Shown here piece after piece: positions 45,384-62,355 of a DNA stretch of 64,000 nucleotides; position 1 is the stretch's first letter, and the number at the start of each line of letters is the position of its first letter. The DNA is taken from NCBI GenBank assembly GCA_021824145.1, contig JAKALM010000001.1, positions 186,001 through 250,000 of the forward strand, written 5' to 3'. Under the pieces are notes generated by a model. The model made no database searches and was not told the origin of the DNA. It was given only the letters and a program-made list of their open reading frames with translations. Source of the DNA: Bacteroidota bacterium. GTDB taxonomy: Bacteria; Bacteroidota; Ignavibacteria; Ignavibacteriales; Ignavibacteriaceae. The position numbers were made by a program, and so were the translations under genes.

Positions 45384-46538
45384 TTATCGTTTAAAAAATT
45401 CATTTACAATTTTATCCCAATTTGCATCATCAAGTTTTTCAAATTCACCAATGTATAATTCACTTCCTTGTTTAACATTAGTCTCTTGTTTTCCCATTTT
45501 CTTTTTCAAATCGATTAGATGATCAAGATCATCTTGATAAAATGAAACAGCAGATTTACCAATTTTCAAATCTACAACTTCTGTATCAAGGTCATCAGCA
45601 TCAATTTCACAAATCCAGTTCGATTCATATGGCGTCATTTCTAATGGTTCAAGATTACTTTTCAAAAGGGTATTTATTCTGGTAACTTTTCCGCTTACCG
45701 GAGAATTAAATGATATTGATCTGTTCCCTTGTTTTATTGAAAACAACGGTTGGTTTCTTTTTATATTCATTCCTAAATTGGGAAGTTCAAGTGAATCAAT
45801 TTTACCAATTAATTTTTTAGCGAAATCGTCAATTCCAACTTTAACTGCGCCGTCTTGTTCCATGCTTGCCCAGCAATGCCCTGGAGAAATAAATACTCCT
45901 CCAGGAATTGAAAATTCATAAGTCAGAAAATGCTTTGATTCAGCAAGATGAGTTATATGAACTTTCGGTTTTAATTGTTTTTGAATTCTATCTTGTCTTT
46001 TGATTAATATCTTTTTGACAAAATCTAAAAGTTCATCTTCAGTAAATGGTTTTTGCACGTAATCCATCGCACCAAATTTCATACACTCTACAGCTGTTTC
46101 AACGGTTGCATATCCGGTAATTATAACAACGTCAATATCCGGGCGCAAATGTTTGACTGATTTTGTAACTTCAACGCCGTCCATTTCGGGCATTTTTAAA
46201 TCTGTAAATACAAAATCGTAATGATGAGATTGAATTAATCCGAGCGCTTCTTTCCCTTTTTCTACGGTGTCAACAGAATAACCGTCGAGCACCAAAATTT
46301 TTCTGAAGCTGTCTAGAATTACTGGCTCATCATCAACACAAAGAATTTTTGCTTTGGGATTTTCAATCTCAACTCGCTTTAATGTTTTAGCTTCTCTTGT
46401 AAAATCCAAGTTCAAGCTTACATTTAACGCGGCTTCGCGATCTTTTCGCAATTTTTTTTCGTTTATTCTCTTGCCGAAATATCGAATAAGAATGTCGGCA
46501 ATGACAAATAATATTACTGCTAAAATTAAAAGTGGCAT
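45384..46538 (-). CDS. Membrane-anchored response regulator with non-lipoyl GcvH-like domain
   Basis: In this 384-residue protein, residues 1-22 form a transmembrane anchor (LILAVILFVIADILIRYF), similar in style to the anchors of 53350 and 53619 with the same Asp position. Receiver ~63-180 with DD (69-70), phospho-Asp113 and Lys in YVQKPF. Residues ~205-300 have the fold signature of glycine cleavage H protein (VFISPGHCWASMEQDGAVKVGIDDFAKKL ... SPVSGKVTRIN), but the lipoylated Lys is replaced (GNRSISFNSP). No DNA-binding domain, so output is likely protein contact at the membrane. Last gene of the operon. Confidence 0.85.
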   Translation of the reverse strand: MPLLILAVILFVIADILIRYFGKRINEKKLRKDREAALNVSLNLDFTREAKTLKRVEIENPKAKILCVDDEPVILDSFRKILVLDGYSVDTVEKGKEALGLIQSHHYDFVFTDLKMPEMDGVEVTKSVKHLRPDIDVVIITGYATVETAVECMKFGAMDYVQKPFTEDELLDFVKKILIKRQDRIQKQLKPKVHITHLAESKHFLTYEFSIPGGVFISPGHCWASMEQDGAVKVGIDDFAKKLIGKIDSLELPNLGMNIKRNQPLFSIKQGNRSISFNSPVSGKVTRINTLLKSNLEPLEMTPYESNWICEIDADDLDTEVVDLKIGKSAVSFYQDDLDHLIDLKKKMGKQETNVKQGSELYIGEFEKLDDANWDKIVNEFFKR

Positions 46539-46624: not shown

Positions 46625-47431
46625 TTAAAGACGATCCGAACTGCAGGGTATTAAATGATTAATCTCGTATTCGCTGTCTGATGGAATAACTCGATAAAAC
46701 CAACCATTGAAGTAAGGATCTTTTTCTATAATATTTGTTTCGTTAATTAATTGTTCATTCCTTTCTATTATTCTTCCTGTTATTGGACTTAGGACATAAT
46801 GCAGCAAACCCTCTTTACTTTTTATTTGAGAACACGAATTTCCCTGAACAATTTCATCGTCAATTTTCAACAATTCCAATTCGTTTATTGAATCAATTGT
46901 TTTAATGAAAAGATCTGTAACGCCTATTAATATCGATCCTGTATTTTCAACTTCTGCCCAACTTGAATAACCCAATCGAAAATATTTTGCTGGGCAAGGA
47001 ACATATATTATTGATTCATCATTTGTACGATTTTTTGATTCAATTAATCTTTTTTGAATTTCTAAATATTTCAATCCGCGAGAAACCGATGAAATTAATT
47101 CATCTGCTGTAAACGGTTTTGGGATAAAATCTATGGCGCCGTTGTATAACGATTTTACAGCGTTCTCAACAGTTGAATAACCGGTTGTCATTATCACAGG
47201 AGATAAAATTTTTCTTTTTGCAATCTCTTCTAAAAACTGAAAGCCGTCAAATTCCGGCATCATTATATCGCTGATAATAAGCCGGTAATTATTTTTATCA
47301 ATTTTTTTAAGCGCATCTTCGGCAGTAATTGATTGGTCTACTTTATATCCTTCAGCAGAGCAAATTTTATTTACTGCATCAAGTACCACTTGTTCATCAT
47401 CAACAATCAATATGTCTGTTACTTTATTCAT
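46625..47431 (-). CDS. Response regulator with non-lipoyl GcvH-like output domain
   Basis: A 268-residue soluble response regulator. Receiver 1-125 with DD (11-12), phospho-Asp55 (ISDIMMPE) and Lys in FIPKPF. Output domain ~145-235 is H-protein-like (AKYFRLGYSSWAEVENTGSILIGVTDLFIKTID ... LSPITGRIIERNEQL), again without the lipoyl Lys at the expected turn (SKEGLLHYVLSP). It overlaps the kinase by 4 bp and is its probable partner. Sibling of the membrane-anchored protein downstream. Confidence 0.86.
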   Translation of the reverse strand: MNKVTDILIVDDEQVVLDAVNKICSAEGYKVDQSITAEDALKKIDKNNYRLIISDIMMPEFDGFQFLEEIAKRKILSPVIMTTGYSTVENAVKSLYNGAIDFIPKPFTADELISSVSRGLKYLEIQKRLIESKNRTNDESIIYVPCPAKYFRLGYSSWAEVENTGSILIGVTDLFIKTIDSINELELLKIDDEIVQGNSCSQIKSKEGLLHYVLSPITGRIIERNEQLINETNIIEKDPYFNGWFYRVIPSDSEYEINHLIPCSSDRL

Positions 47432-49299
47432 ACTTTATTTAAAATCAAAGGTAAACGAATTATAAAAGTTGTTCCTTTGTTCAATTCGCTTTCTACATTT
47501 ATTGTGCCATTATGGTTATCAATTATTCCCCAAATAACAGCAAGGCCTAAACCGGTTCCTTTTTGTCCTTTTGTACTGTAGAAAGGTTCAAATATTTTTG
47601 CCAAATCTTCTTTTGCAATTCCGCAGCCGGTATCTGAAATTTTTATTTCTATATAATCTTTTTGTCCGCCTGTATCAACAGCATCCCATTTTTGCCAGCC
47701 GCATCCTTTGCGTGTACATCCTTCATAAAAGCCTTGAGAAGCAATTTCAATATTGAAAATTGGAGCACCGCATTTTGGACATTTTTTACCCTCTTCAATT
47801 AAAGAAGAACTACATTGTGGACATATTAAATTAATTTCTTTTTTTACATCCAACTCAATTCCGTAAATATGCCTGCTCTTTCCGTAAACGGGATCAAAAT
47901 TTATAATTCCTTCCTCACCGTTTGATTTTACTTTTACTTTTATTGTAGGCATGCCGTCAATCTTTACTTCATTGTCCATTAAGTCATGTCGCTTTGGGCA
48001 AATTGCTTTTTTGATATGAGTAATTCCGTAAGGTGAGAGACTAAGTTTTGATGAAGAAATTGTAATCGTCCCGCCGGTTTTGTCAATTGCATCGTGAGCG
48101 TTTACTAAAAGATTTAAAATCACTTGCTGAATTTGATTTGAATCGACAGTTATTGTCGGAATATTCGCATCAAGATTTTTTACCAATTTAATTCTATCAA
48201 TAACAAGCTGGTTTTCAACTACGCTAATAGCGTGTTCAATAATCTCATTTATGTTAGCTTCATTTTTTTTAGGAACAGACTGCCGGGCAAAATCAAGAAG
48301 GCTTTTTACTATTTCTCTACTTCGTTTTGTTTCTCTAACAATCACTTTTAAATCTTCCTGAAGTTCTGGATTATTCTGAGTTCGCTTTAGGAGAAAACTG
48401 CTGTAAGTTAGAACCCCAGTTAAAGGATTATTAATTTCATGAGCAACGCCGGCAGCAAGCCTTCCCAACGAAGCCATTTTATCAGATTGAAATAACTGCA
48501 GCCGCGCTTCGGAAAGTTTTTTTGTCATATTATTAAATGATCTTGCAAGCATTCCCATTTCATCATCGCGTTTATCTTTAATTGTGTAATTAAGATTACC
48601 AACTCCAACTTGGTTAGTTGCGTTCAACAATTCTTTAACCGGTTTGTCAACCCAGCGTTTTACAAAAAAACCAATGATAAAACTTAAAGCAAGAATTGCC
48701 GTAATCGCAAAGATTACAATTTCCATTTCTCCTTTTTTAATTTGCTTATCAACTTCATCAAGAGAAATTGTAACATCTAAAACACCTAAAACAATTTGGG
48801 ATTTTGAGTGAGCATGGCAGTCAGCGCTCCAGCAAGATTGTTCATTATAAATTGGACTTATTATTCCAATAACTCTTGAAGAGTCTGGATGAATTCTGAA
48901 AATTCTAGTTCTATCTTTAATTGGCAGCCTTTCAAGGGGCTTGTTGGCAGCATGGCAAGCATAACAACTTTCAGCTTTTTTATCAACCATCTTTCCAATA
49001 TCCTCTTCGCGAGAGGAATAAATTATTTCTCCAACCTTATTCAGAACTCGAACATCTCTAATTCCGGGCTGCTGTCCAATCGTGTTTATGATTTTTAAAA
49101 TTCTATCTCTTTGGTTGAGCAACATATCGTAGCGGGTACTGTGTTTAACGGTTTCGCTTAATTGATTAGCGCTTCTTTCAACTTCTGCAAGCAGGCTATG
49201 ACTGTGAGATTGAATATTGAAATAAGAAAAAATTCCAATTGTAATTATTGCAGTCAATCCAACCGCAACAATTAATTTAAATCCAATCTTCTTAAACAT
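47428..49299 (-). CDS. Haem-motif sensor kinase with zinc-ribbon insert in ATPase domain
   Basis: A 623-residue kinase from the ATG at 49299 (a TTG lies 21 bp upstream). TM1 ~9-27; periplasmic domain with one c-type haem motif CYACH (112-116) and a CWSADCH (C-x4-CH, 156-162); TM2 ~193-213; HAMP; HisKA with phospho-His287 in AAGVAHEINNPLTG; HATPase_c N-box NLLVNAHDAI. Before the DTGCGIA box lies a ~130-residue insertion with CPKRH, CPQC, CPKCG and CTRKGCGW, likely a zinc ribbon. Overlaps the response regulator by 4 bp. Probably senses redox state or ligands at periplasmic haem. Confidence 0.9.
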   Translation of the reverse strand: MFKKIGFKLIVAVGLTAIITIGIFSYFNIQSHSHSLLAEVERSANQLSETVKHSTRYDMLLNQRDRILKIINTIGQQPGIRDVRVLNKVGEIIYSSREEDIGKMVDKKAESCYACHAANKPLERLPIKDRTRIFRIHPDSSRVIGIISPIYNEQSCWSADCHAHSKSQIVLGVLDVTISLDEVDKQIKKGEMEIVIFAITAILALSFIIGFFVKRWVDKPVKELLNATNQVGVGNLNYTIKDKRDDEMGMLARSFNNMTKKLSEARLQLFQSDKMASLGRLAAGVAHEINNPLTGVLTYSSFLLKRTQNNPELQEDLKVIVRETKRSREIVKSLLDFARQSVPKKNEANINEIIEHAISVVENQLVIDRIKLVKNLDANIPTITVDSNQIQQVILNLLVNAHDAIDKTGGTITISSSKLSLSPYGITHIKKAICPKRHDLMDNEVKIDGMPTIKVKVKSNGEEGIINFDPVYGKSRHIYGIELDVKKEINLICPQCSSSLIEEGKKCPKCGAPIFNIEIASQGFYEGCTRKGCGWQKWDAVDTGGQKDYIEIKISDTGCGIAKEDLAKIFEPFYSTKGQKGTGLGLAVIWGIIDNHNGTINVESELNKGTTFIIRLPLILNKV

Positions 49300-49378
49300 A
49301 ATTTTTAATTCCAAAAGCAACTTCTGTTACTTTATATTACAAATAAAATCAAAGGTGCTGCAAATATCTAACTATTAA

Positions 49379-52694: not shown

Positions 52695-53349
52695 ATTTCC
52701 TTTCCCCGCTATCAGTAATGCTGATAAAGCCCATTTATTGTTTGTAACTATTTAATGTTGTTAATATAAAATTATGCCAATGGATTTAATGTTTATATTT
52801 TTTATCTCATAAAAGGTTAAGATTTATTTTTAAGCGAATTAATAATGAATGAAAAAATTAATTGTGTTGAATGTTTGAATTAACTTCTCGTAACTGAAAA
52901 TCATTATCAATAATATTAGCCGAATTGAGAAATGGAAGAGTAAAATTTTTATGATGTCCATTTGGAAAAAATTGTTGCTGTAAAATTGTTGTCATGTTGC
53001 AATCGAAATTAAATCACCAATTAATTTCAGCCCCATCAGTAAAGGAGATTCTAACTTTTTTAAATCGGTTAAAAGAAACAAAATTTATTGGAAGTAAATA
53101 TTTTCAAATTTTTTTTATAAAAAAAAATTGTAACGAAATTTTTATTATCACTTAAACATTGATGTAATTTTAAACACCGTGTTGTTCAAAAGATCAACAA
53201 ATATTTTCCACTTCAAAGTCGAACAATTCTGCAACGATAACGTAATCTCTTTTGATCAAATGATTTAAAATTCCAAAATAATAATCAACATTGATGGTAT
53301 GTTAGTTGAACTTTATTAAGTTGAAATTTATCTGAGAAAGGGAAAAGTC
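52695..53349. other. 655-bp divergent regulatory region between the two electron-transfer operons
   Basis: No ORF of note. It contains a plus-strand sigma-54-type promoter (53295-53310), a 10-bp perfect palindrome TTTGATCAAA (53251-53260) and an imperfect dyad TGTTCAAAAGATCAACA (53182-53198). On the minus strand a TTGGCATAAT element at 52771-52780 has a good -24 half but no -12 partner at the right distance. Likely carries enhancer sites for the downstream NtrC-type proteins. Confidence 0.55.
53295..53310 (+). promoter_or_regulatory. Sigma-54-type promoter of the 53350-56957 operon
   Basis: TGGTATGTTAGTTGAA: exact GG-N10-GA spacing, with the same TTGAA -12 half seen at 7197 and 12243. The predicted start of transcription is near 53321, about 29 nt before the ATG at 53350, which has a GAAAGGGA ribosome site. 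Confidence 0.55.
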
Positions 53350-53574
53350 ATGCTAACATTTTTGTTGATCTTAGTTCTAGTTTTTGTTGCAGTCGATCTT
53401 TTTGTTCAGCTTGTAATTGATCCACTAGCTGCAAAATTTGAAGAGAAAAAGAAACAAAAAACAGAGAAGGTAAAACTTGTTGTTCCAAAAATTAGCTTAG
53501 TTGGCGCAACAATGTACGATGGTGGTAAATCGAAATCTGATGAACAAAAACAAACTGAAGAACATAAGGAATAG
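53350..53574 (+). CDS. Small membrane-anchored protein with GATMYDGG motif
   Basis: In this 74-residue protein, residues ~1-22 form a transmembrane helix (FLLILVLVFVAVDLFVQLV) with an Asp near its cytoplasmic edge, as in 53619 and 45384. Then a Lys/Glu-rich stalk and LVGATMYDGG (motif GATMYDGG at 52-59), then a short polar tail. The G-x-T-M-x-D-G-G motif recurs in the next gene and in 56238. First gene of the operon. No family recognised; the motif may bind a shared partner. Confidence 0.75.
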   Translation: MLTFLLILVLVFVAVDLFVQLVIDPLAAKFEEKKKQKTEKVKLVVPKISLVGATMYDGGKSKSDEQKQTEEHKE

Positions 53575-53618
53575 CCCTTCAGTTATGAAATAATTAATAA
53601 AAATTTATAGGCAGAAAA

Positions 53619-54278
53619 ATGGTTGCGTTATTTGTGGTGTTCTTGTTTTTATTTTTTGTATCTCTCGATATAATTGTTTTAATATTTCAAAAGAAAATTC
53701 ATCCTGCCTTTGAAATTGACTCTTCGAATTATTTACAGTTTTCAAAAGGAAAAAATATTTTAAACTCTAACGAGATATTTTTTTCACCAGGGCATACTTG
53801 GTTAAAGTATGATGAAAATGGTTTTATAAATATTGGTTTGGATGAGTTTGCCTCAAAGTTGTTAGGAAACATTCCATTAAAAATAAATTCATCAATAAAT
53901 AAACAGATTAAGAAAGGGGATGTATTATTCAAAAGTGAAGTTGAAAATAAAAAATTAGAATTTAGATCGCCGATTGATGGAATTGTCAAATCAGTTAATG
54001 CAAATACTAGCAATAAAAATTTGAATAAGAATTGGATTTTACAAATTCAGTCAAACAATGTAAATCAAAATTCAAAAAGATTCTTAACTGGCAGTGAAGC
54101 GTTGGAATGGATGAGGAAGGAATATTCAAGACTTGAAAATTTTCTAAATCAGCATGCACCCAAAAAAGAATTAGCTGGAGCAACAATGTTCGATGGAGGA
54201 ACAATTGCCGAAGGTGCAATATTTAATTTGCCCAAAAATAAAATTGAATTGTTCGAGAAAGAATTTCTTTCGTTGTAG
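53619..54278 (+). CDS. Membrane-anchored non-lipoyl GcvH-like protein with GATMFDGG motif
   Basis: A 219-residue protein. Residues 1-24 are a TM anchor. Residues ~50-130 are an H-protein-like fold (IFFSPGHTWLKYDENGFINIGLDEFASKLLG ... FRSPIDGIVKSVNAN); where GcvH has ESVK-type lipoyl loop it shows ENKKLEFRSP, so two lysines are close but not in the normal hairpin context. The LAGATMFDGG motif (GATMFDGG 187-194) is near the C-terminus. Very similar in plan to the C-terminal half of the membrane-anchored response regulator. Role unknown. Confidence 0.83.
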   Translation: MVALFVVFLFLFFVSLDIIVLIFQKKIHPAFEIDSSNYLQFSKGKNILNSNEIFFSPGHTWLKYDENGFINIGLDEFASKLLGNIPLKINSSINKQIKKGDVLFKSEVENKKLEFRSPIDGIVKSVNANTSNKNLNKNWILQIQSNNVNQNSKRFLTGSEALEWMRKEYSRLENFLNQHAPKKELAGATMFDGGTIAEGAIFNLPKNKIELFEKEFLSL

Positions 54279-54291
54279 TATGGAGTAAAAA

Positions 54292-55068
54292 ATGAGTAAG
54301 GAAAAAGGAATCCTCTTTGATGTTACGCTTTGTATCGGTTGCGGGGAATGTTATAAAGCATGTAAAGAAGAAAATAAATTGCCGCAATCAAATAAAGATT
54401 ATTTGAAAGATCATTTATCGGATAAGACTTTTACAGTTGTTGAACAATATGGAAATAATTATGCACGTAAACTTTGTATGCATTGCAACGAACCTTCATG
54501 TGTATCTGTTTGTCCGGTTGGCGCTTTTACAAAAAGTGAAACTGGTGCGGTGCTGTATGATAGTAATAAATGTATTGGCTGCAGATATTGTATGCAGGCA
54601 TGTCCACACAAAATACCAAGATATGAATGGGAAACAACTCAGCCGCGAATTAGAAAATGTGTACTTTGTTATGATAGAGTAAAAGCAGGTAAATTAACTG
54701 CATGTGCAGAAGCTTGCCCAACTGAAGCAACATTATTCGGTGATATGGATAAATTAATTGAAATTGCTAAAGACAGATTAAAAGAAAATAAAGATAAATA
54801 TTTTCAAGAGATATATGGATTGAAAGAGGCTGGCGGTGGGCATGTACTAATACTTTCAAATGTTCCTTTTGAACAGTTAGGCTACACCTCGCTTATACCG
54901 CAACAGCCAATGCCGGAATTTACAAAGAGGGCAATGGAAAAAATTCCACCAGTAGTAGCTGTTGGCGGATTATTTTTAACAGGAATGTATTGGCTTACAA
55001 AAAGAAAAAATCAAATTGCTAAAGAAGAAAACGAATCTTTACACAGGAAATATTATCATGAAAATTAA
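54292..55068 (+). CDS. Four-[4Fe-4S] ferredoxin subunit without export signal
   Basis: A 258-residue relative of the 51801 protein but starting directly with SKEKGILFDVTLCIGCGECYKACK; no Tat or Sec signal. Four cluster-binding motifs: CIGCGECYKAC, CMHCNEPSCVSVC, CIGCRYCMQAC, CVLCYDRVKAGKLTACAEAC. The C-terminal ~25 residues form a hydrophobic anchor (VVAVGGLFLTGMYWLTKRK). The clusters should face the cytoplasm, opposite to its counterpart in the other operon. It overlaps the NrfD gene by 11 bp. Confidence 0.92.
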   Translation: MSKEKGILFDVTLCIGCGECYKACKEENKLPQSNKDYLKDHLSDKTFTVVEQYGNNYARKLCMHCNEPSCVSVCPVGAFTKSETGAVLYDSNKCIGCRYCMQACPHKIPRYEWETTQPRIRKCVLCYDRVKAGKLTACAEACPTEATLFGDMDKLIEIAKDRLKENKDKYFQEIYGLKEAGGGHVLILSNVPFEQLGYTSLIPQQPMPEFTKRAMEKIPPVVAVGGLFLTGMYWLTKRKNQIAKEENESLHRKYYHEN

Positions 55069-56236
55069 TGAAATATTAAAACCGACTTTTTGGAAGATAG
55101 TTTCAGTATTAATTGTTACTTTAGGTTTATATTCAACTATATTTAGATTTACAAAAGGGCTTGGCGCAGCAACCCACTTATATGATACAGTACCTTGGGG
55201 ACTATGGATCGGGTTTGATTTTTTAGGCGTGGGGCTTGCAGCAGCAGGGTTTACAATTGCAGCTACGGTTCATATTTTTAATTTTCACAAATTTGATTCT
55301 CTTGTTCGCCCTGCAATTTTAACTGCCTTTTTAGGATACTCTGTGGTTGTGGGACTTTTAATAGTTGACCTTGGAAGGCCGGAAAATTTTTGGCATCCGC
55401 TTATCATGTGGAATTTTCATTCCGTAATGTTCGAGATAACTTGGTGCATCATTTGTTATTCGACTGTTCTTTTGCTCGAGTTAGCTCCTGTTGTTTTAGA
55501 GAAATTTGGTTTAAAGACTCCAATTAAAATTCTAAAAAAAATTTCTATTCCAATTGTTATTGCAGGAGTTTTATTCTCAACTTTACATCAATCATCTTTT
55601 GGCTCGCTTTATTTAATTGTACCAGGCAGGCTTCATCCTCTTTGGTATTCTTCTTTACTGCCGGTTCAATTTTATATTTCATGTATTGGGGCAGGCTTAT
55701 CAATGATAATTTTTGAATCGTATTTAAATGCAAGAGCCTTTAAAACCGGAATAAACTTGGAAGTATTATCAACAATATCAATTATTATTTTGGTTGACTT
55801 GATTTTAAGTTTTGTTATCAAGTTTGTGGATTTATTTGTTTCGGGAAAATTAATTTATCTTGCAATTCCTTCACTCGAAACTTATCTATTCTATCTTGAA
55901 ATATTAGTTGGAACCTTTCTACCAATTTACTTGTTGAGTTTTAAAAAATTTAGAGAAGATAAAATGTGGTTATATATTATTTCAATTTTTACAATATCGG
56001 GTTTTATATTAAATAGAATGAATGTAAGTATAACAGGTCTAACTGCTTCTTCAGGGAAAAACTATTTCCCATCATTTGATGAAATAAGTATTACGCTGAT
56101 GCTTGTTGTGTTGGCAATGTATGCATTTAATTTAATTGCAAAAAACTTGTCGGTATTCAATGAAGAAAACAACGATCGAGAATTAAATAAAAAAGAAAAT
56201 ATGTCAGAATCTCAAAAATTAATTTTAAGTGAATGA
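55058..56236 (+). CDS. NrfD-type quinone-interacting membrane subunit
   Basis: A 392-residue protein from the ATG at 55058 (ACAGGAAA site); an upstream TTG would overlap the ferredoxin gene by over 50 bp. About ten helices; VPWGLWIGFDFLGVGLAAAGFTIAA is the NrfD signature, and GRPENFWHPLIMWNFHSVMFE and STLHQSSFGSLYL match the 50545 protein. Partner of the cytoplasmic-side ferredoxin, probably exchanging electrons with menaquinone on the inner face. Overlaps or touches the next gene. Confidence 0.92.
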   Translation: MKINEILKPTFWKIVSVLIVTLGLYSTIFRFTKGLGAATHLYDTVPWGLWIGFDFLGVGLAAAGFTIAATVHIFNFHKFDSLVRPAILTAFLGYSVVVGLLIVDLGRPENFWHPLIMWNFHSVMFEITWCIICYSTVLLLELAPVVLEKFGLKTPIKILKKISIPIVIAGVLFSTLHQSSFGSLYLIVPGRLHPLWYSSLLPVQFYISCIGAGLSMIIFESYLNARAFKTGINLEVLSTISIIILVDLILSFVIKFVDLFVSGKLIYLAIPSLETYLFYLEILVGTFLPIYLLSFKKFREDKMWLYIISIFTISGFILNRMNVSITGLTASSGKNYFPSFDEISITLMLVVLAMYAFNLIAKNLSVFNEENNDRELNKKENMSESQKLILSE

Positions 56237-56237
56237 T

Positions 56238-56957
56238 ATGAAAAATTTAAATGATTCAGGAAATCGATTTTATGAATTTATGAAATGCATTTGGATGTCT
56301 TCAAATATAATTGAATATAAATTATGTGATAAAAATTTTGATTGCGAGAATTGTTCGTTTGACAAAGTTATTAGGAATTTATCAAACGATAATATTTCGA
56401 ATTATTCCGAGCAGCCAAATCTTATCAACAAATTGCTGGAAAAACTTAATGATATTAAATTCGATGATAAAATTATTTACTTGAAAAATTGCCTCATTGC
56501 TAAGCAAATTTTTTCAAACACTTATTTCCTTGGAATCAATCCAATTTTAATAAGTTTTTTAGATAATGTAAGCATTATGATGAAATATAAGCCATTGGAA
56601 AGAATTTCAATTGGGAAAAAGTTTATCAGTTTTATAGGTGATTGGGGCGAAATAAATTTATTGGCACCAATGAATTTTTCAATTTATGATAAAGTAAATA
56701 ATCCAACAGATAATCCAATGAAGTCAAAATGGATTGCCGTTGTCGGTGCAATCCAACAAGAGATTTCTGCAAGCAAATTAAATGATGATGCTTGGAATAA
56801 ACTATATAATAAATCCATTGGAATATTAAATGATATTAAATCATCATATCCCAAAGTTGGAATAACTATGCATGACGGTGGAGTAAATGTTAATTATCTT
56901 CATCAACTTGTTGGTAAAGAAAAATATTTAGAAATAATTAATTCATTATTTACTTAG
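56238..56957 (+). CDS. Cys-motif protein with degenerate GcvH-like region and GITMHDGG motif
   Basis: In this 239-residue protein (a GTG at 56229 is an alternative start), residues ~20-50 contain EYKLCDKNFDCENCSFDKVIRN, a C-x4-C-x2-C cluster seen in proteins near GcvH-like genes of anaerobes. The middle (FISFIGDWGEINLLAPMNFSIYDKVNN) is an H-like segment lacking a lipoyl Lys. Its GITMHDGG motif (~208-215) is the third copy in this operon. Probably soluble. Ends with a terminator. Function unknown. Confidence 0.7.
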   Translation: MKNLNDSGNRFYEFMKCIWMSSNIIEYKLCDKNFDCENCSFDKVIRNLSNDNISNYSEQPNLINKLLEKLNDIKFDDKIIYLKNCLIAKQIFSNTYFLGINPILISFLDNVSIMMKYKPLERISIGKKFISFIGDWGEINLLAPMNFSIYDKVNNPTDNPMKSKWIAVVGAIQQEISASKLNDDAWNKLYNKSIGILNDIKSSYPKVGITMHDGGVNVNYLHQLVGKEKYLEIINSLFT

Positions 56958-57079: not shown

Positions 57080-58675
57080 ATGAAAACAAAAATACGGAAT
57101 AAATTAAGCGTTCGACTTATCATTTCAATTTCCTTGATACTCTTTAGCATCTTGGCAATCTATACTTATATAATTATTAAAAATTTAGACAACTACTTAA
57201 CTCAAGCTCGCTTTGAAAGTGCATATAACATTAGCGATTTAATAAAAAAATCAACGCGCTACAGCATGCTTTTAAATAGGCGTGAAGACGTTCATCAGAT
57301 TATAAAAACTTTGGGAACTGAAATTGGTGTTAATAATATTAGAATTTATAACAAACAAGGTCATATAATTTTTTCAACTGACACTTCTGAAATTTTAAAG
57401 AAGGTTGATCTTTCAGCTGAAGCCTGCATAGTTTGTCATAACAGCTCGGTTCCTTTAAAAAGTTTGACTAATCAAAACAAAATTAGAATCTATAAAAATC
57501 CTGAAAACAAGCGTGTGCTTGGATTGATAAATCCGATTCAAAATGAAACTGATTGCACAAATTCAGATTGCCACGCTCATTCGCCGAAGGTACAAATTCT
57601 TGGTGTATTAGATGTTGTAGTTTCATTAGATAAGTTAGATCAGATAATTGCAAAGAATACAAGAGAAACTATTCTAAACGCTTTTCTAATTACAATTATT
57701 ATTTCATTTTTTGTGGGCCTGTTCATTACTCTTTTAGTTAATAAACCAATAAAAAAAATTACTAAAGGAATTGAAGAAATCGGGAAAGGAAATTTGAATT
57801 ATAAAATTGAAGTCAATTCAAAAAATGAACTTGGGCAAATGGCAAAACGGTTTAATGAAATGTCTGCAAAATTGGATGAGGCGTACAAAGAAATTAAAAA
57901 CTGGTCTGAAACTCTAAATGAAAAAGTGAATGAGAAAACTGAAGAGTTAAAAAATATTTATAACCAAGTAAACCAGATTGAAAAATTAGCTTCACTTGGA
58001 AAGCTTTCTGCAACGGTTGCGCATGAGCTGAACAATCCCCTTGAAGGTATTTTAACTTACAGCAAATTAATTACAAGAAAATTGCAGGCAATTCAAAAGG
58101 ACTCTGAGTATTCCAAACTAATTGAATATCTAGATTTAATATCTGGAGAATCAGCCCGCTGCGGAAAAATTGTTAAAGATCTGCTATTGTTTTCTCACGG
58201 CGAAAAAGATGAGTTTGCAAAAGAAGATTTGATAAAAATTATTGATAAAAGTATAACCGTTATTGGACATCATTTAGAAATTCATGGAATTGAATTGCAG
58301 AAAGAATTTCCTCAAGGTACAAATGAATTATATTGTAATGCCCAGAAAATTCAGCAGGCAATTATGTCGCTTCTAATTAATTCTATAGAAGCGATGCCGA
58401 ATGGAGGTAAAATAATCGTTCGATTAACGTGGGAAAATAATAAAGCGGTAATTAGAGTTATTGATGAAGGAACAGGAATTTCAAAAAAAGATTTGCCTCA
58501 TATTTTCGAGCCGTTTTATTCTACAAAAGAAGCATCTACCGGGACTGGTCTTGGGCTTGCAGTTGTTTACGGAATTGTGGCAAATCATAATGGCCAAGTT
58601 GAAGTTGAAAAGACTTCGGAAAAAGGAACAACATTTAAAGTTACATTACCACAAAATGAAAAATTAATTGAGTAA
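57080..58675 (+). CDS. Haem-motif sensor histidine kinase
   Basis: A 531-residue kinase with GTGGGGAT ribosome site. TM1 ~12-33; periplasmic part with CIVCH (116-120, c-type haem) and CTNSDCH (159-165, C-x4-CH); TM2 ~199-220; HAMP; HisKA with His315 in SATVAHELNNPLEG; HATPase_c with IDEGTGIS and GTGLGLAVVYGIV. Same architecture as the 47428 kinase but lacking its zinc-ribbon insertion. It precedes the NtrC regulator by 6 bp and should be its partner. Confidence 0.92.
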   Translation: MKTKIRNKLSVRLIISISLILFSILAIYTYIIIKNLDNYLTQARFESAYNISDLIKKSTRYSMLLNRREDVHQIIKTLGTEIGVNNIRIYNKQGHIIFSTDTSEILKKVDLSAEACIVCHNSSVPLKSLTNQNKIRIYKNPENKRVLGLINPIQNETDCTNSDCHAHSPKVQILGVLDVVVSLDKLDQIIAKNTRETILNAFLITIIISFFVGLFITLLVNKPIKKITKGIEEIGKGNLNYKIEVNSKNELGQMAKRFNEMSAKLDEAYKEIKNWSETLNEKVNEKTEELKNIYNQVNQIEKLASLGKLSATVAHELNNPLEGILTYSKLITRKLQAIQKDSEYSKLIEYLDLISGESARCGKIVKDLLLFSHGEKDEFAKEDLIKIIDKSITVIGHHLEIHGIELQKEFPQGTNELYCNAQKIQQAIMSLLINSIEAMPNGGKIIVRLTWENNKAVIRVIDEGTGISKKDLPHIFEPFYSTKEASTGTGLGLAVVYGIVANHNGQVEVEKTSEKGTTFKVTLPQNEKLIE

Positions 58676-58681
58676 AAAATT

Positions 58682-60037
58682 ATGAACAGAAAAGAAAATA
58701 TTTTAATAGTTGATGACGAAAAAATTGTACGCGAATCACTGTTCCACTGGTTTGAAGAAGAAGGTTATGAAGTTGAAACCGCCGAAGACGGTGAAACGGC
58801 GTTAAGAAAATATGAGAAAACAAAATTTGATCTTCTTTTGGTTGATATGAAAATGCCCGGCATGAGCGGCTTGGAATTATTAAGCACTATCAAATCAATC
58901 GACAAAGATTCCGTTATAATTTTAATTACCGCATTTGCGTCTGTTCCCACTGCCATAACTGCATTGAAAAATGGTGCCTACGATTATGTAACAAAACCAG
59001 TTGATCCAGATGAGTTGGCTCATCTTGTAAAAAAAGCACTTGAACAAAGAGCTCTGAAGATTGAGAACAAACAATTAAAGGAAAAGATTGATGAAATAAT
59101 TCGCCCGGATAATTTAATTGGTGATAGTCCTCAGATGAAAAAAATATATGAGCTCGTCCAAACCGTAGCTCCAACAGACACAACCGTTATGATAAGAGGT
59201 GAAAGCGGAACTGGAAAAGAACTTGTAGCAAAAGCAATTCATATTAACAGCAACAGAAAATATTTTCCAATTATTCCTGTCAACTGTGGTGCACTTGCAG
59301 AGACGATTCTCGAAAGCGAATTATTTGGCCATGAGAAAGGTGCGTTTACCGGGGCTCAATTCCGGCGTAAAGGAAAATTTGAAATGGCAGACGGCGGAAC
59401 AATTTTTCTTGATGAGATAGGATCAATATCTATTAAAATGCAGATTGAACTTTTGCGAATTATTGAAACCAAACAATTCAATAGAGTTGGAGGAAATGAA
59501 TTAATTAAAAGTGATTTTCGCGTAATTATTGCCACTAATGAGCCATTAGAAGAATTAGTTAAAGCTGGTAAATTTAGAGAAGATCTTTATTATAGATTAA
59601 ATGTTTTTACAATTGTAATTCCACCTCTGCGCGAAAGAAGAACCGATATTCCTGAGCTTGTTAATTTCTTTTTGAAAAAATTTTCTACTGCAATGAACAA
59701 ACCTATACGGCATGTTTCCCAGGAAGCAATGGAATTTTTGGTAAATTATGATTGGCCGGGTAACGTAAGAGAATTAGAGAATGCAATTGAAAGAGCAGTT
59801 GTTGTTGGCAAGCAAGATACTATAAAAGTGACCGATTTACCTTTTCACATTTCTTCAAATCATTTTGAATCTGAAAATGGAAGTAAAAGTCTTTCGTCAA
59901 TGGAAAAGAAATATATTTTGAAAATATTAAATGAGAACAATTGGAATATTTCAAAAAGTGCTCAAATTTTAGAAATTGACCGAGTGACTTTGTATAATAA
60001 AATTAACAAATACAGCCTCAGTAAAATAAATAACTGA
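58682..60037 (+). CDS. NtrC-family sigma-54 activator
   Basis: A 451-residue regulator. Receiver with DD (11-12) and Asp55 (LVDMKMPG), Lys in DYVTKPVDPDE; AAA+ with Walker A GESGTGKE (173-180), intact GAFTGA loop (220-225), Walker B GTIFLDEIGS, sensor I ATN and arginine fingers FREDLYYRLN (Arg305); Fis-type HTH ends ILEIDRVTLYNKINKYSL. Fully functional as a sigma-54 activator. Likely regulates the 53295 promoter and the paralogue at 61000. Its TGA overlaps the next gene's ATG by one base. Confidence 0.94.
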   Translation: MNRKENILIVDDEKIVRESLFHWFEEEGYEVETAEDGETALRKYEKTKFDLLLVDMKMPGMSGLELLSTIKSIDKDSVIILITAFASVPTAITALKNGAYDYVTKPVDPDELAHLVKKALEQRALKIENKQLKEKIDEIIRPDNLIGDSPQMKKIYELVQTVAPTDTTVMIRGESGTGKELVAKAIHINSNRKYFPIIPVNCGALAETILESELFGHEKGAFTGAQFRRKGKFEMADGGTIFLDEIGSISIKMQIELLRIIETKQFNRVGGNELIKSDFRVIIATNEPLEELVKAGKFREDLYYRLNVFTIVIPPLRERRTDIPELVNFFLKKFSTAMNKPIRHVSQEAMEFLVNYDWPGNVRELENAIERAVVVGKQDTIKVTDLPFHISSNHFESENGSKSLSSMEKKYILKILNENNWNISKSAQILEIDRVTLYNKINKYSLSKINN

Positions 60038-60573
60038 TGGACATCTTTATTGCACCGATAAGATTTTCCAACACGCTGTTGTTGAAAAATATTTTGGATG
60101 AATTAAAAAACAGATTCAATTCAGAAATAAGGGAAATTAATCTGCAAATAAACTTAGATGAATTTTATTCCAAAGAGCGCGGCCAATATTTTTCTACTCA
60201 AATTATTGCCGAAGCAATAAGTCATACTAAGTTATACGATGGTAAAATTATTTTACTTACTGATGTAGATATTTTCGTCCCTGTACTAACTTTTGTTTTT
60301 GGCGAAGCACAGCTTAACGGAAAACATTCATTAATATCGGTTTGCCGATTGCACGAAGAATTTTATTCCGGAGAAACAAACGAAAAACTTTTATTCGAAA
60401 GGACATTAAAAGAAATTCTTCATGAACTTGGGCATAATTACGGTTTACGGCATTGTATGAATTGGGATTGCGTTATGCATTCATCACCTGGAATTGAAGA
60501 AGTGGATATAAAAGGGAATTTTTATTGTGGCAATTGTGTAAAACAAGTTGAAGGTTACAAATACAATTTTTAA
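60037..60573 (+). CDS. amzA: Archaemetzincin-family zinc metallopeptidase
   Basis: A 178-residue metzincin. HELGHNYGLRH (129-139) gives the three zinc His and catalytic Glu; Met147 is the Met-turn in CVMHSS; C140, C145, C164 and C167 form the second zinc site of the family. Length matches archaemetzincins, aminopeptidases of unclear physiological role, first known from archaea and found in some bacteria. Translationally coupled (TGATG) to the NtrC activator, which is unusual and suggests a regulatory or processing link. Confidence 0.92.
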   Translation: MDIFIAPIRFSNTLLLKNILDELKNRFNSEIREINLQINLDEFYSKERGQYFSTQIIAEAISHTKLYDGKIILLTDVDIFVPVLTFVFGEAQLNGKHSLISVCRLHEEFYSGETNEKLLFERTLKEILHELGHNYGLRHCMNWDCVMHSSPGIEEVDIKGNFYCGNCVKQVEGYKYNF

Positions 60574-60999
60574 GGAATTAAATTCTCAATGGCGGTAATG
60601 CAGAATAAAATAATTTTTTGCAAATGAGAAATTTTTATCTGAAATGATTTAATTCTTTACAACCAAAAAAAACTTAAATAAAAAATTTTTAATAGTTAAT
60701 ATTTGTCAAGTGGAATGGATTATAATTGTTTTTTTTATAACAAATAGTTTTTCCATTGCTCCTTTATTTTTGAAAGTACCTATCATTAAATAAAAAATCT
60801 TAATTCATTGAAATATTTTCTAGAAGAATTTCTTTGGCGCATTGTTTGCAAACCAAATGATAGTAGAACAATCGGGGTTCCAAGTGACTGGGATTTTGTC
60901 AAAAGAAAATATTCAGTATAGAATTAAATTCTATCAATTGATGATTTCTAAAAAATCAAACACACAAAAATTTAACCTTAGTTAATTAGCGGAAATGTT
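60574..60999. other. 426-bp region before the GAFTGA-less NtrC paralogue
   Basis: Very A+T-rich. Contains a near-consensus sigma-54 promoter at 60835-60850 overlapping a palindrome GTTTGCAAAC (60844-60853). Upstream of it are poly-T/A runs (60731-60742) but no clear hairpin. A 42-codon open frame (60857-60985) has no ribosome site and is not called. Confidence 0.5.
60835..60850 (+). promoter_or_regulatory. Sigma-54 promoter of the degenerate NtrC paralogue
   Basis: TGGCGCATTGTTTGCA: -24 TGGCGC (one change from TGGCAC), exact GG-N10-GC spacing, perfect -12 TTGCA. Best match in the window. Transcription from about 60861 would leave a ~139-nt leader before the ATG at 61000, which has a GCGGAAA ribosome site. 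Confidence 0.68.
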
Positions 61000-62355
61000 A
61001 TGAATAAAAAAGACAGAATATTAATTGCAGATGATGAGAGAGTTGTCAGAGAGTCATTATATCATTGGTTTACTGAAGCTGGATTTATTGTAACAACTGC
61101 TGAGAACGGAGAAATTGCATTGAAAAATTTTATTAGAGAAAAATTCGATTTGCTTTTAGTTGATATGAAAATGCCTGGAATTGGCGGTTTGGAATTATTG
61201 AAAAGAGTAAAGGAACTTGATAATGAAGTTATTGTTATAATGATTACTGCATTTGCATCTGTTTCAACAGCAATTACAGCACTCAAAAATGGAGCTTACG
61301 ATTATGTTACAAAGCCGGTTGATCCTGATGAACTGACACATCTTGTAAATAAAGCGATTGAACAACGCAACTTGAAACGAGAAAATAAATTGCTTAAAGA
61401 AAATTTGGATGAAATATCTAAATCGGAAAATATTATTGGTGAAAGTTTTTTGATGAACAAAGTTCACGAATTAATTAATTCTGCTGCTTCGACAGATTCA
61501 ACTGTAATGATTAGAGGAGAATGCGGAACTGGAAAAGAACTTGTCGCAAAAACAATTCATTCAAAAAGTAAAAACAAATATTTTCCATTTTTATCAATTA
61601 AGTGCGGTGCAATGTGTGAGTCTGCTTTGGAAAAGGAATTATTTGGTGAAGATCCCGGGACATCAGATGGAAATCAAATTGTTCAAAAAGGAAAAATTGA
61701 ACTTGTTGAAGGAGGAACTTTGTATCTTGATGAAGTAAATTCTCTTTCACCAAAACTACAAGTAGAAATTTTAAAAGTTTTAGAAACAAAACAGTTTTGT
61801 CGTGTTGGAAATAATAATCCAATTTCTGCAAATTTTCGATTGATTACAGCTTCAACAGAAAATTTAGAAAAGTTGGTAAAGGAGGGAAAGTTCCGAGAAG
61901 ATCTTTTTTATAAAATAAATGTTTTCCCAATTTTAATTCCTCCTTTAAGAGAAAGAAGAGAAGATATTTTACTGCTTGCAAAAGAATTTATTAAATTAAT
62001 TTCTACTCGCGTTAGCAGGCCAATTAAAGAAATTTCAAAAGAAGCTTCAGAGTTTTTAACTAATTATGATTGGCCCGGAAATATTAGAGAATTAGAAAAC
62101 GCAATTGAAAGAGCAATCGTAATTGGCAAAAAAAATGAAATTGAAGTTGAAGATCTTCCTTTCCAAATTGCTTCAATTCAAATTGATTTAGATGACGACA
62201 AAAAAAGTCTTTCAGCAATCGAGAAAAGACACATCTTAAAAATTCTGAATGAAAACAAATGGAATATATCCAAGGCTGCAAGTATTTTAGAAATTGATAG
62301 AGTTACATTATACAACAAGATTAATAAATTTAATCTACATCGAATTTCTAAATAA
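61000..62355 (+). CDS. NtrC paralogue lacking GAFTGA and an arginine finger
   Basis: This 451-residue protein aligns without gaps to the 58682 regulator. Receiver intact (Asp55). In the AAA+ domain Walker A is GECGTGKE and Walker B is GTLYLDEVNS, but the sigma-54 loop at 220-225 reads GTSDGN instead of GAFTGA. The second arginine-finger position 305 is Lys (FYKINVF), and sensor I ATN is AST. The Fis-type HTH is nearly identical to that of 58682. It probably cannot open sigma-54 promoters and may compete with 58682 for DNA or heterohexamerise. Preceded by a sigma-54 promoter. Confidence 0.9.
   Translation: MNKKDRILIADDERVVRESLYHWFTEAGFIVTTAENGEIALKNFIREKFDLLLVDMKMPGIGGLELLKRVKELDNEVIVIMITAFASVSTAITALKNGAYDYVTKPVDPDELTHLVNKAIEQRNLKRENKLLKENLDEISKSENIIGESFLMNKVHELINSAASTDSTVMIRGECGTGKELVAKTIHSKSKNKYFPFLSIKCGAMCESALEKELFGEDPGTSDGNQIVQKGKIELVEGGTLYLDEVNSLSPKLQVEILKVLETKQFCRVGNNNPISANFRLITASTENLEKLVKEGKFREDLFYKINVFPILIPPLRERREDILLLAKEFIKLISTRVSRPIKEISKEASEFLTNYDWPGNIRELENAIERAIVIGKKNEIEVEDLPFQIASIQIDLDDDKKSLSAIEKRHILKILNENKWNISKAASILEIDRVTLYNKINKFNLHRISK

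Follow-up and report, generated by a model that had tools for sequence, protein, structure and literature searches.

Several homologs of NtrC-type enhancer-binding proteins (EBPs) have a broken GAFTGA motif, among them TyrR, DhaR, HupR, VpsR and the NtrC proteins of R. capsulatus and Caulobacter (PMC3162934, PMC10274813). Such proteins are usually treated as annotation noise or as lone sigma-70 regulators. In a second group of systems, paralogous EBPs hetero-oligomerise, as described for HrpR/HrpS, VnfA1/VnfA3/VnfA2 and FleQ/FleT (PMC9542535). The residues that couple neighbouring subunits have been dissected in PspF, where R168 acts in trans: the R168K substitution lowers ATPase activity from 39.5 to 0.12 per min, abolishes remodelling and yields constitutive, non-productive hexamers, and R122A and N64Q leave ATPase activities of 1.3 and 1.5, respectively (PMC3419264).

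An NtrC-type regulator and its GAFTGA-less twin

The window, which here means the whole 64-kb stretch of DNA analysed, lies in a 3.48-Mb Ignavibacteriales genome and carries the following pair of regulators.

58682–60037, + strand: canonical partner EBP, GAFTGA and R305 intact, 451 aa
61000–62355, + strand: the twin, a GAFTGA-less NtrC-type response regulator of 451 aa with receiver, AAA+ and Fis-type HTH domains
61657–61674, + strand: L1 loop of the twin (residues 220–225), GTSDGN replacing GAFTGA
61912–61914, + strand: Lys305 of the twin, replacing Arg (R168 in PspF, R299 in NtrC1)

An earlier note on this DNA described the two proteins as gapless partners of equal length that share a preserved receiver and DNA-binding domain, and this description holds. 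The products align without a gap (280/451 residues identical, 62%), with the AAA+ domain the most diverged of the three (58% identity) and the DNA-recognition helix the same in both. Pfam places the receiver, sigma-54 AAA+, lid and HTH_8 domains over the same residue ranges in twin and partner, and the twin scores above the cut-offs for PF00072, PF00158, PF25601 and PF02954, giving it the receiver, sigma-54 AAA+ and HTH_8 architecture of an NtrC-type response regulator (group 1 bEBP). Its receiver contains the phospho-acceptor Asp, Asp pair, Thr and Lys (D11, D12, D55, T83 and K105). The three-domain fold is predicted to be intact (AlphaFold2, 16 sequences, mean pLDDT 82.6), and its top full-length structural match is NtrX of Brucella abortus (5m7p, E 1e-39), a protein of similar fold and only 31% sequence identity; the whole-chain TM of only 0.60 presumably reflects a different domain orientation.

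The residues lost from the twin are those for sigma-54 contact and catalysis. GAFTGA residues F222 and T223 are gone in all nine paralogs, as the earlier note had read for this copy, and its call of Arg305 to Lys is likewise confirmed: the paralogs have RxDxxxK instead of RxDxxxR (K305 in 9/9), and position 305 is Arg in each of the 32 canonical relatives and also in 17 further genomes. The third proposed loss, that of the sensor-I Asn, applies to this genome (N286T) and is not general, since the Asn is retained in the twins of G010, G003, G001 and G007. Two further losses had been missed, N201 to K and R259 to K; both original residues are absent from 9/9 paralogs, although N201 is less strict outside the family, where distant GAFTGA-bearing relatives can have His. 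By alignment, with the PspF offset taken from the aligned ranges, residues 305, 259 and 201 correspond to PspF R168, R122 and N64, and the equivalent of PspF R162 (residue 299) is kept in the twins. Walker A (GECGTGKE) and Walker B (LDE) are also kept, with the Walker A Lys, Walker B DE and D55 present in 9/9 paralogs. The twin therefore retains the Walker motifs of a functional sigma-54 activator and has neither its GAFTGA nor its RxDxxxR motif. It is the only one of the genome's 20 full EBPs without both the Phe and R305, and the wider EBP alignment that the earlier note had called for places this signature in 9/9 paralogs and in none of the canonical relatives. Because the L1 loop and R305 are lost clade-wide, and by analogy with the inactive PspF R168K, we infer that the twin cannot be expected to activate sigma-54, in line with the earlier proposal.

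Other degenerate EBPs were seen. At a contig end (L019, G000:C36:183434-183940) lies another degenerate EBP with GAFSGA, Walker B YFPE and R259 changed to Tyr. The sole family copy of G033 (L086, 8795-10147) has GAFAGA and a Walker B Asp-to-Val change, which may reflect an independent loss of function in progress.

Distribution, origin and selection

The 58682 family occurs in 45/80 family genomes, with two copies per genome only in this Ignavibacteriales genus, nine genomes of which carry a GAFTGA-less member with a full-length reading frame. Seven of these twins form a single clade (clade A, 100/100 support). The other two, from G011 and G009 (clade B; L077 1825-3180 and L094 8731-10077), branch within the canonical members of the genus. 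They lack an acidic residue of the receiver (D12 to N) and are located elsewhere, adjoining a lipoprotein gene. Forcing all nine into one group costs 13–14 log units (AU p 0.133 for the full alignment and 0.044 once the trait columns are excluded), so that a single origin is disfavoured, not disproven, and two separate origins are likely, not proven. That two duplications, probably separate ones, show the same R-to-K change suggests that the silenced ring or nucleotide state is itself under selection. The clade-B twins differ by a dS of only 0.27 whereas the canonical copies from the same two genomes are saturated, which hints at a possible recent horizontal transfer together with the neighbouring lipoprotein gene.

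Five genomes contain both copies and could be compared as matched pairs: pN averages 0.195 in the twins and 0.082 in their partners, with pS of 0.77 and 0.80, respectively, values that are saturated and make the ratios rough. The excess in twin pN is greatest in L1 (5.9-fold), intermediate in the AAA+ domain (2.9-fold) and the receiver (2.5-fold), and smallest in the HTH (1.7-fold). Clade B has a dN/dS of ~0.18 and zero amino-acid changes in the HTH, and the mismatch of the recognition helix to the canonical consensus is 0.16 for twins and 0.17 for canonical proteins. By these sequence measures the twin is a conserved class under purifying selection and not a case of decay in one genome.

Kinase, promoters and paired elements

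Both regulators lie downstream of a kinase gene and a presumed target operon. The features of this region are given in order of position.

52885–52931, + strand: second O2 copy, weaker, upstream of the divergent FeS51801 operon
53170–53189, + strand: palindrome O1, TTCAACAG-N4-CTGTTGAA type, candidate 58682 site, 125 bp upstream of the promoter at 53295
53295–53310, + strand: canonical-operon promoter of sigma-54 type, TGGTATGTTAGTTGAA, conserved across 10 genomes
53350–56957, + strand: presumed target operon (74-aa membrane protein, GcvH-like, 4Fe-4S, NrfD-like and second GcvH-like proteins)
57080–58675, + strand: sensor histidine kinase with a periplasmic CxxCH motif, likely kinase for both regulators
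60037–60573, + strand: archaemetzincin-like peptidase M54, between the two regulators
60583–60630, + strand: O2, a paired inverted element of 48 bp, ahead of the twin promoter
60835–60850, + strand: sigma-54-type -24/-12 promoter upstream of the twin, TGGCGCATTGTTTGCA, with a homologous site in 7/7 clade-A genomes

At 13 positions in alpha-1 and the beta5-alpha5 loop, which we take to be kinase-facing, clade-A twins match 58682 at 9–12 of 13 and the genome's other EBPs at 1–7, so that kinase 57080 is probably common to both regulators. The gene neighbourhood varies within the clade. The twins of G002 and G004, which branch more deeply, come after a kinase of their own, HK2, with intact catalytic boxes; in G000, G010, G001 and G007, HK2 is gone, the twin stands beside the canonical pair and the canonical kinase is upstream of both regulators. 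G004, which is 99% complete, has the twin and its kinase and lacks the canonical EBP, the canonical kinase and the target operon. The missing canonical pair of G002 proves nothing, given an assembly completeness of 89% and a contig end lying immediately upstream.

The matching kinase-facing residues and the same recognition helix make it plausible that the twin binds the same sites as 58682. The candidate site, O1, starts 114–125 bp before the canonical promoter in six genus genomes, can be aligned in ten, and is assigned to 58682 by its position and co-occurrence alone. O1 was found neither ahead of the twin nor ahead of the G004 cluster, so it was set aside as an element of the twin promoter; the twin's control region carries O2 instead. 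A genome-wide scan for O1 targets returned near-matches too frequent to inform. The first gene of the operon, directly after the promoter at 53295, encodes a conserved 74-aa single-span protein (53350-53574, +) that is easily overlooked with an 80-aa ORF cut-off.

In 7/7 clade-A genomes a sigma-54-type promoter precedes the first gene of the twin cluster, either the twin itself or a GcvH-like gene. It reads TGGCGCATTGTTTGCA here and is of the TGGCTCG type elsewhere in the clade, with a -12 GC in G000, G010, G003 and G001 and GT in the others. The call draws its weight from this conservation, since a single match in 64 kb is at chance level. In G010 the GcvH-like gene separates promoter from twin, and in G003 it begins downstream of the same promoter; in this window it is gone from 60851-60999, where a leader of ~140 nt remains. 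ORF 45384 was considered as an EBP driving the twin and rejected, because the translations of 45384 and 46625 show a receiver and a GcvH-like domain and no AAA+ domain. These response regulators (45384-46538 and 46625-47431, both on the - strand), whose output domain resembles glycine-cleavage H protein and is neither DNA-binding nor AAA+, adjoin a kinase at 47428-49320.

Relative to the twin promoter, O2 is ~120–445 bp upstream; six clade-A genomes have the complete element, and in G002 it is truncated where the contig stops. When a matrix trained on the twin copies was used to scan 2.9 Mb, the best new site was the FeS51801 upstream region of G001, and those of G019, G037 and G055 were also among the top new sites. 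Genus-wide, O2 is nearly fixed in position before this FeS/NrfD/cytochrome operon (~222–240 bp, about -237; equivalents at L212, L213 and L215-L218), the copy at 52885 in this window being the weakest. FeS51801 may have a sigma-54 promoter of its own, for which the candidate is a conserved TTGGCATARTTTTATAT at about -86, although this sequence lacks the -12 GC. O2 is also present at FeS51801 in G006 and G012, in which both regulators are absent; this rejects O2 as an operator of the twin or of 58682 and points to another factor as its ligand. Folding is weak (z -0.3 to -1.6) and the location at FeS51801 is divergent intergenic, so O2 was likewise rejected as a terminator or RNA hairpin. New here, at the level of sequence, are the sigma-54-type promoter of the clade-A twin cluster and an O2 element common to the twin and the FeS51801 operon.

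A model of twin function and its relation to known systems

Our preferred reading, held tentatively and at slightly less than an even chance, is that 58682's kinase has a second, sigma-54-silent output in the twin, which is co-expressed with the sister operon and damps 58682. Derived from the 58682 lineage, the twin would be a hydrolysis-dead response regulator that takes the same signal, probably via kinase 57080, and has the 58682 recognition helix, yet could neither contact sigma-54 nor complete ATP hydrolysis. Its own sigma-54-type promoter would drive it beside the O2 shared with the divergent FeS51801 operon, so that the twin would accumulate once the FeS51801/O2 regulon is on. Accumulated twin might then sit at the sites of 58682, for which O1 at 53170 is the candidate, and the 53295 operon would be transcribed less. 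A broader version, which we regard as rather doubtful, is that duplication of a regulator was followed, probably on two occasions, by loss of the same residues for catalysis and sigma-54 contact, and that the disabled copy was retained as a dedicated brake that couples two redox operons, one being damped when the other is on; the coupling is suggested by a twin gene controlled via the sister operon's O2 and a DNA-reading part that is 58682's.

The main observation against the preferred reading is G004, where twin and intact kinase persist without canonical EBP or target operon. A dedicated anti-activator of 58682 would always be accompanied by its partner, and in G004 it is not. The earlier proposal of an anti-activator that damps the operon is thus supported in part: the sigma-54-silent element of it holds, but antagonism cannot be all that the twin does, and the twin's control region carries a different element (O2) from the one at the canonical promoter (O1), which also counts against it. 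Judging from the gene content of G004, a 58682-independent role must exist somewhere in the clade. This keeps alive, as a somewhat unlikely alternative, a stand-alone sigma-54-independent factor in the style of R. capsulatus NtrC, HupR or VpsR, activating or repressing its own sigma-70 promoters, with the nearness to 58682 a leftover of duplication. By analogy, GAFTGA-less EBPs can activate sigma-70 promoters (PMC10274813), the precedents found are sigma-70 regulators, and both clade-B twins sit apart beside the lipoprotein gene; G002 may be a second case like G004, but is uninformative for the reasons given above. A stand-alone factor fits poorly with the twins of G000, G010, G001 and G007, which stand beside the canonical pair, have lost HK2 and keep the canonical kinase interface and recognition helix.

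The twin could also act as a poison subunit, joining 58682 in mixed hexamers in which K305 inactivates the adjacent ATP site in trans, with a fall in activation proportional to the twin's dose. The trans action of PspF R168 and the inactive R168K hexamers (PMC3419264), hetero-oligomerisation of paralogous bEBPs in Azotobacter, Pseudomonas and Rhodobacter (PMC9542535) and the predicted retention of receiver and AAA+ folds agree with this; the AAA+ domain is, however, the most diverged of the pair and G004 is left unexplained, and we consider such poisoning improbable. That the twin is a functionless, decaying duplicate is highly improbable: evolution is faster and catalytic residues are repeatedly lost, but the frames are full-length in nine genomes, pN is far below pS, the Walker motifs, D55 and HTH are intact, the R-to-K change is identical in 9/9 and the promoter is retained in 7/7 clade-A genomes.

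The open-access papers searched describe no silenced tandem twin in which Lys replaces the R168 equivalent. A lineage-wide silenced twin beside its active parent would be a naturally occurring dominant-negative arrangement in sigma-54 systems. A missing GAFTGA Phe combined with Lys at the R168 equivalent makes a fixed signature by which further cases could be sought. Of the two precedents named in the earlier note, TyrR is correct; CtcC has no DNA-binding domain and is not listed as GAFTGA-less. As an EBP homolog with a broken GAFTGA, the twin falls in the class of TyrR, HupR and VpsR, and like these, DhaR and the R. capsulatus and Caulobacter NtrC proteins it is an NtrC-type AAA+ protein that has lost the sigma-54-contacting loop. 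Those described are lone orthologs at sigma-70 promoters, whereas the twin has an intact activator as its neighbouring paralog and, in addition, K at the R168 position. With HrpR/HrpS, VnfA1/VnfA3/VnfA2 and FleQ/FleT the twin and 58682 share the presence of at least two paralogous EBPs in one locus or regulon, but those pairs are mostly described as joint activators, and the twin lacks both the sigma-54 loop and the subunit-communication residues. Finally, the twin is a natural equivalent of PspF R168K with a further substitution at the N64 position, the site of N64Q (PMC3419264); the PspF mutants are laboratory changes to an active protein, and R168K still bound sigma-54, whereas the twin is also without GAFTGA.
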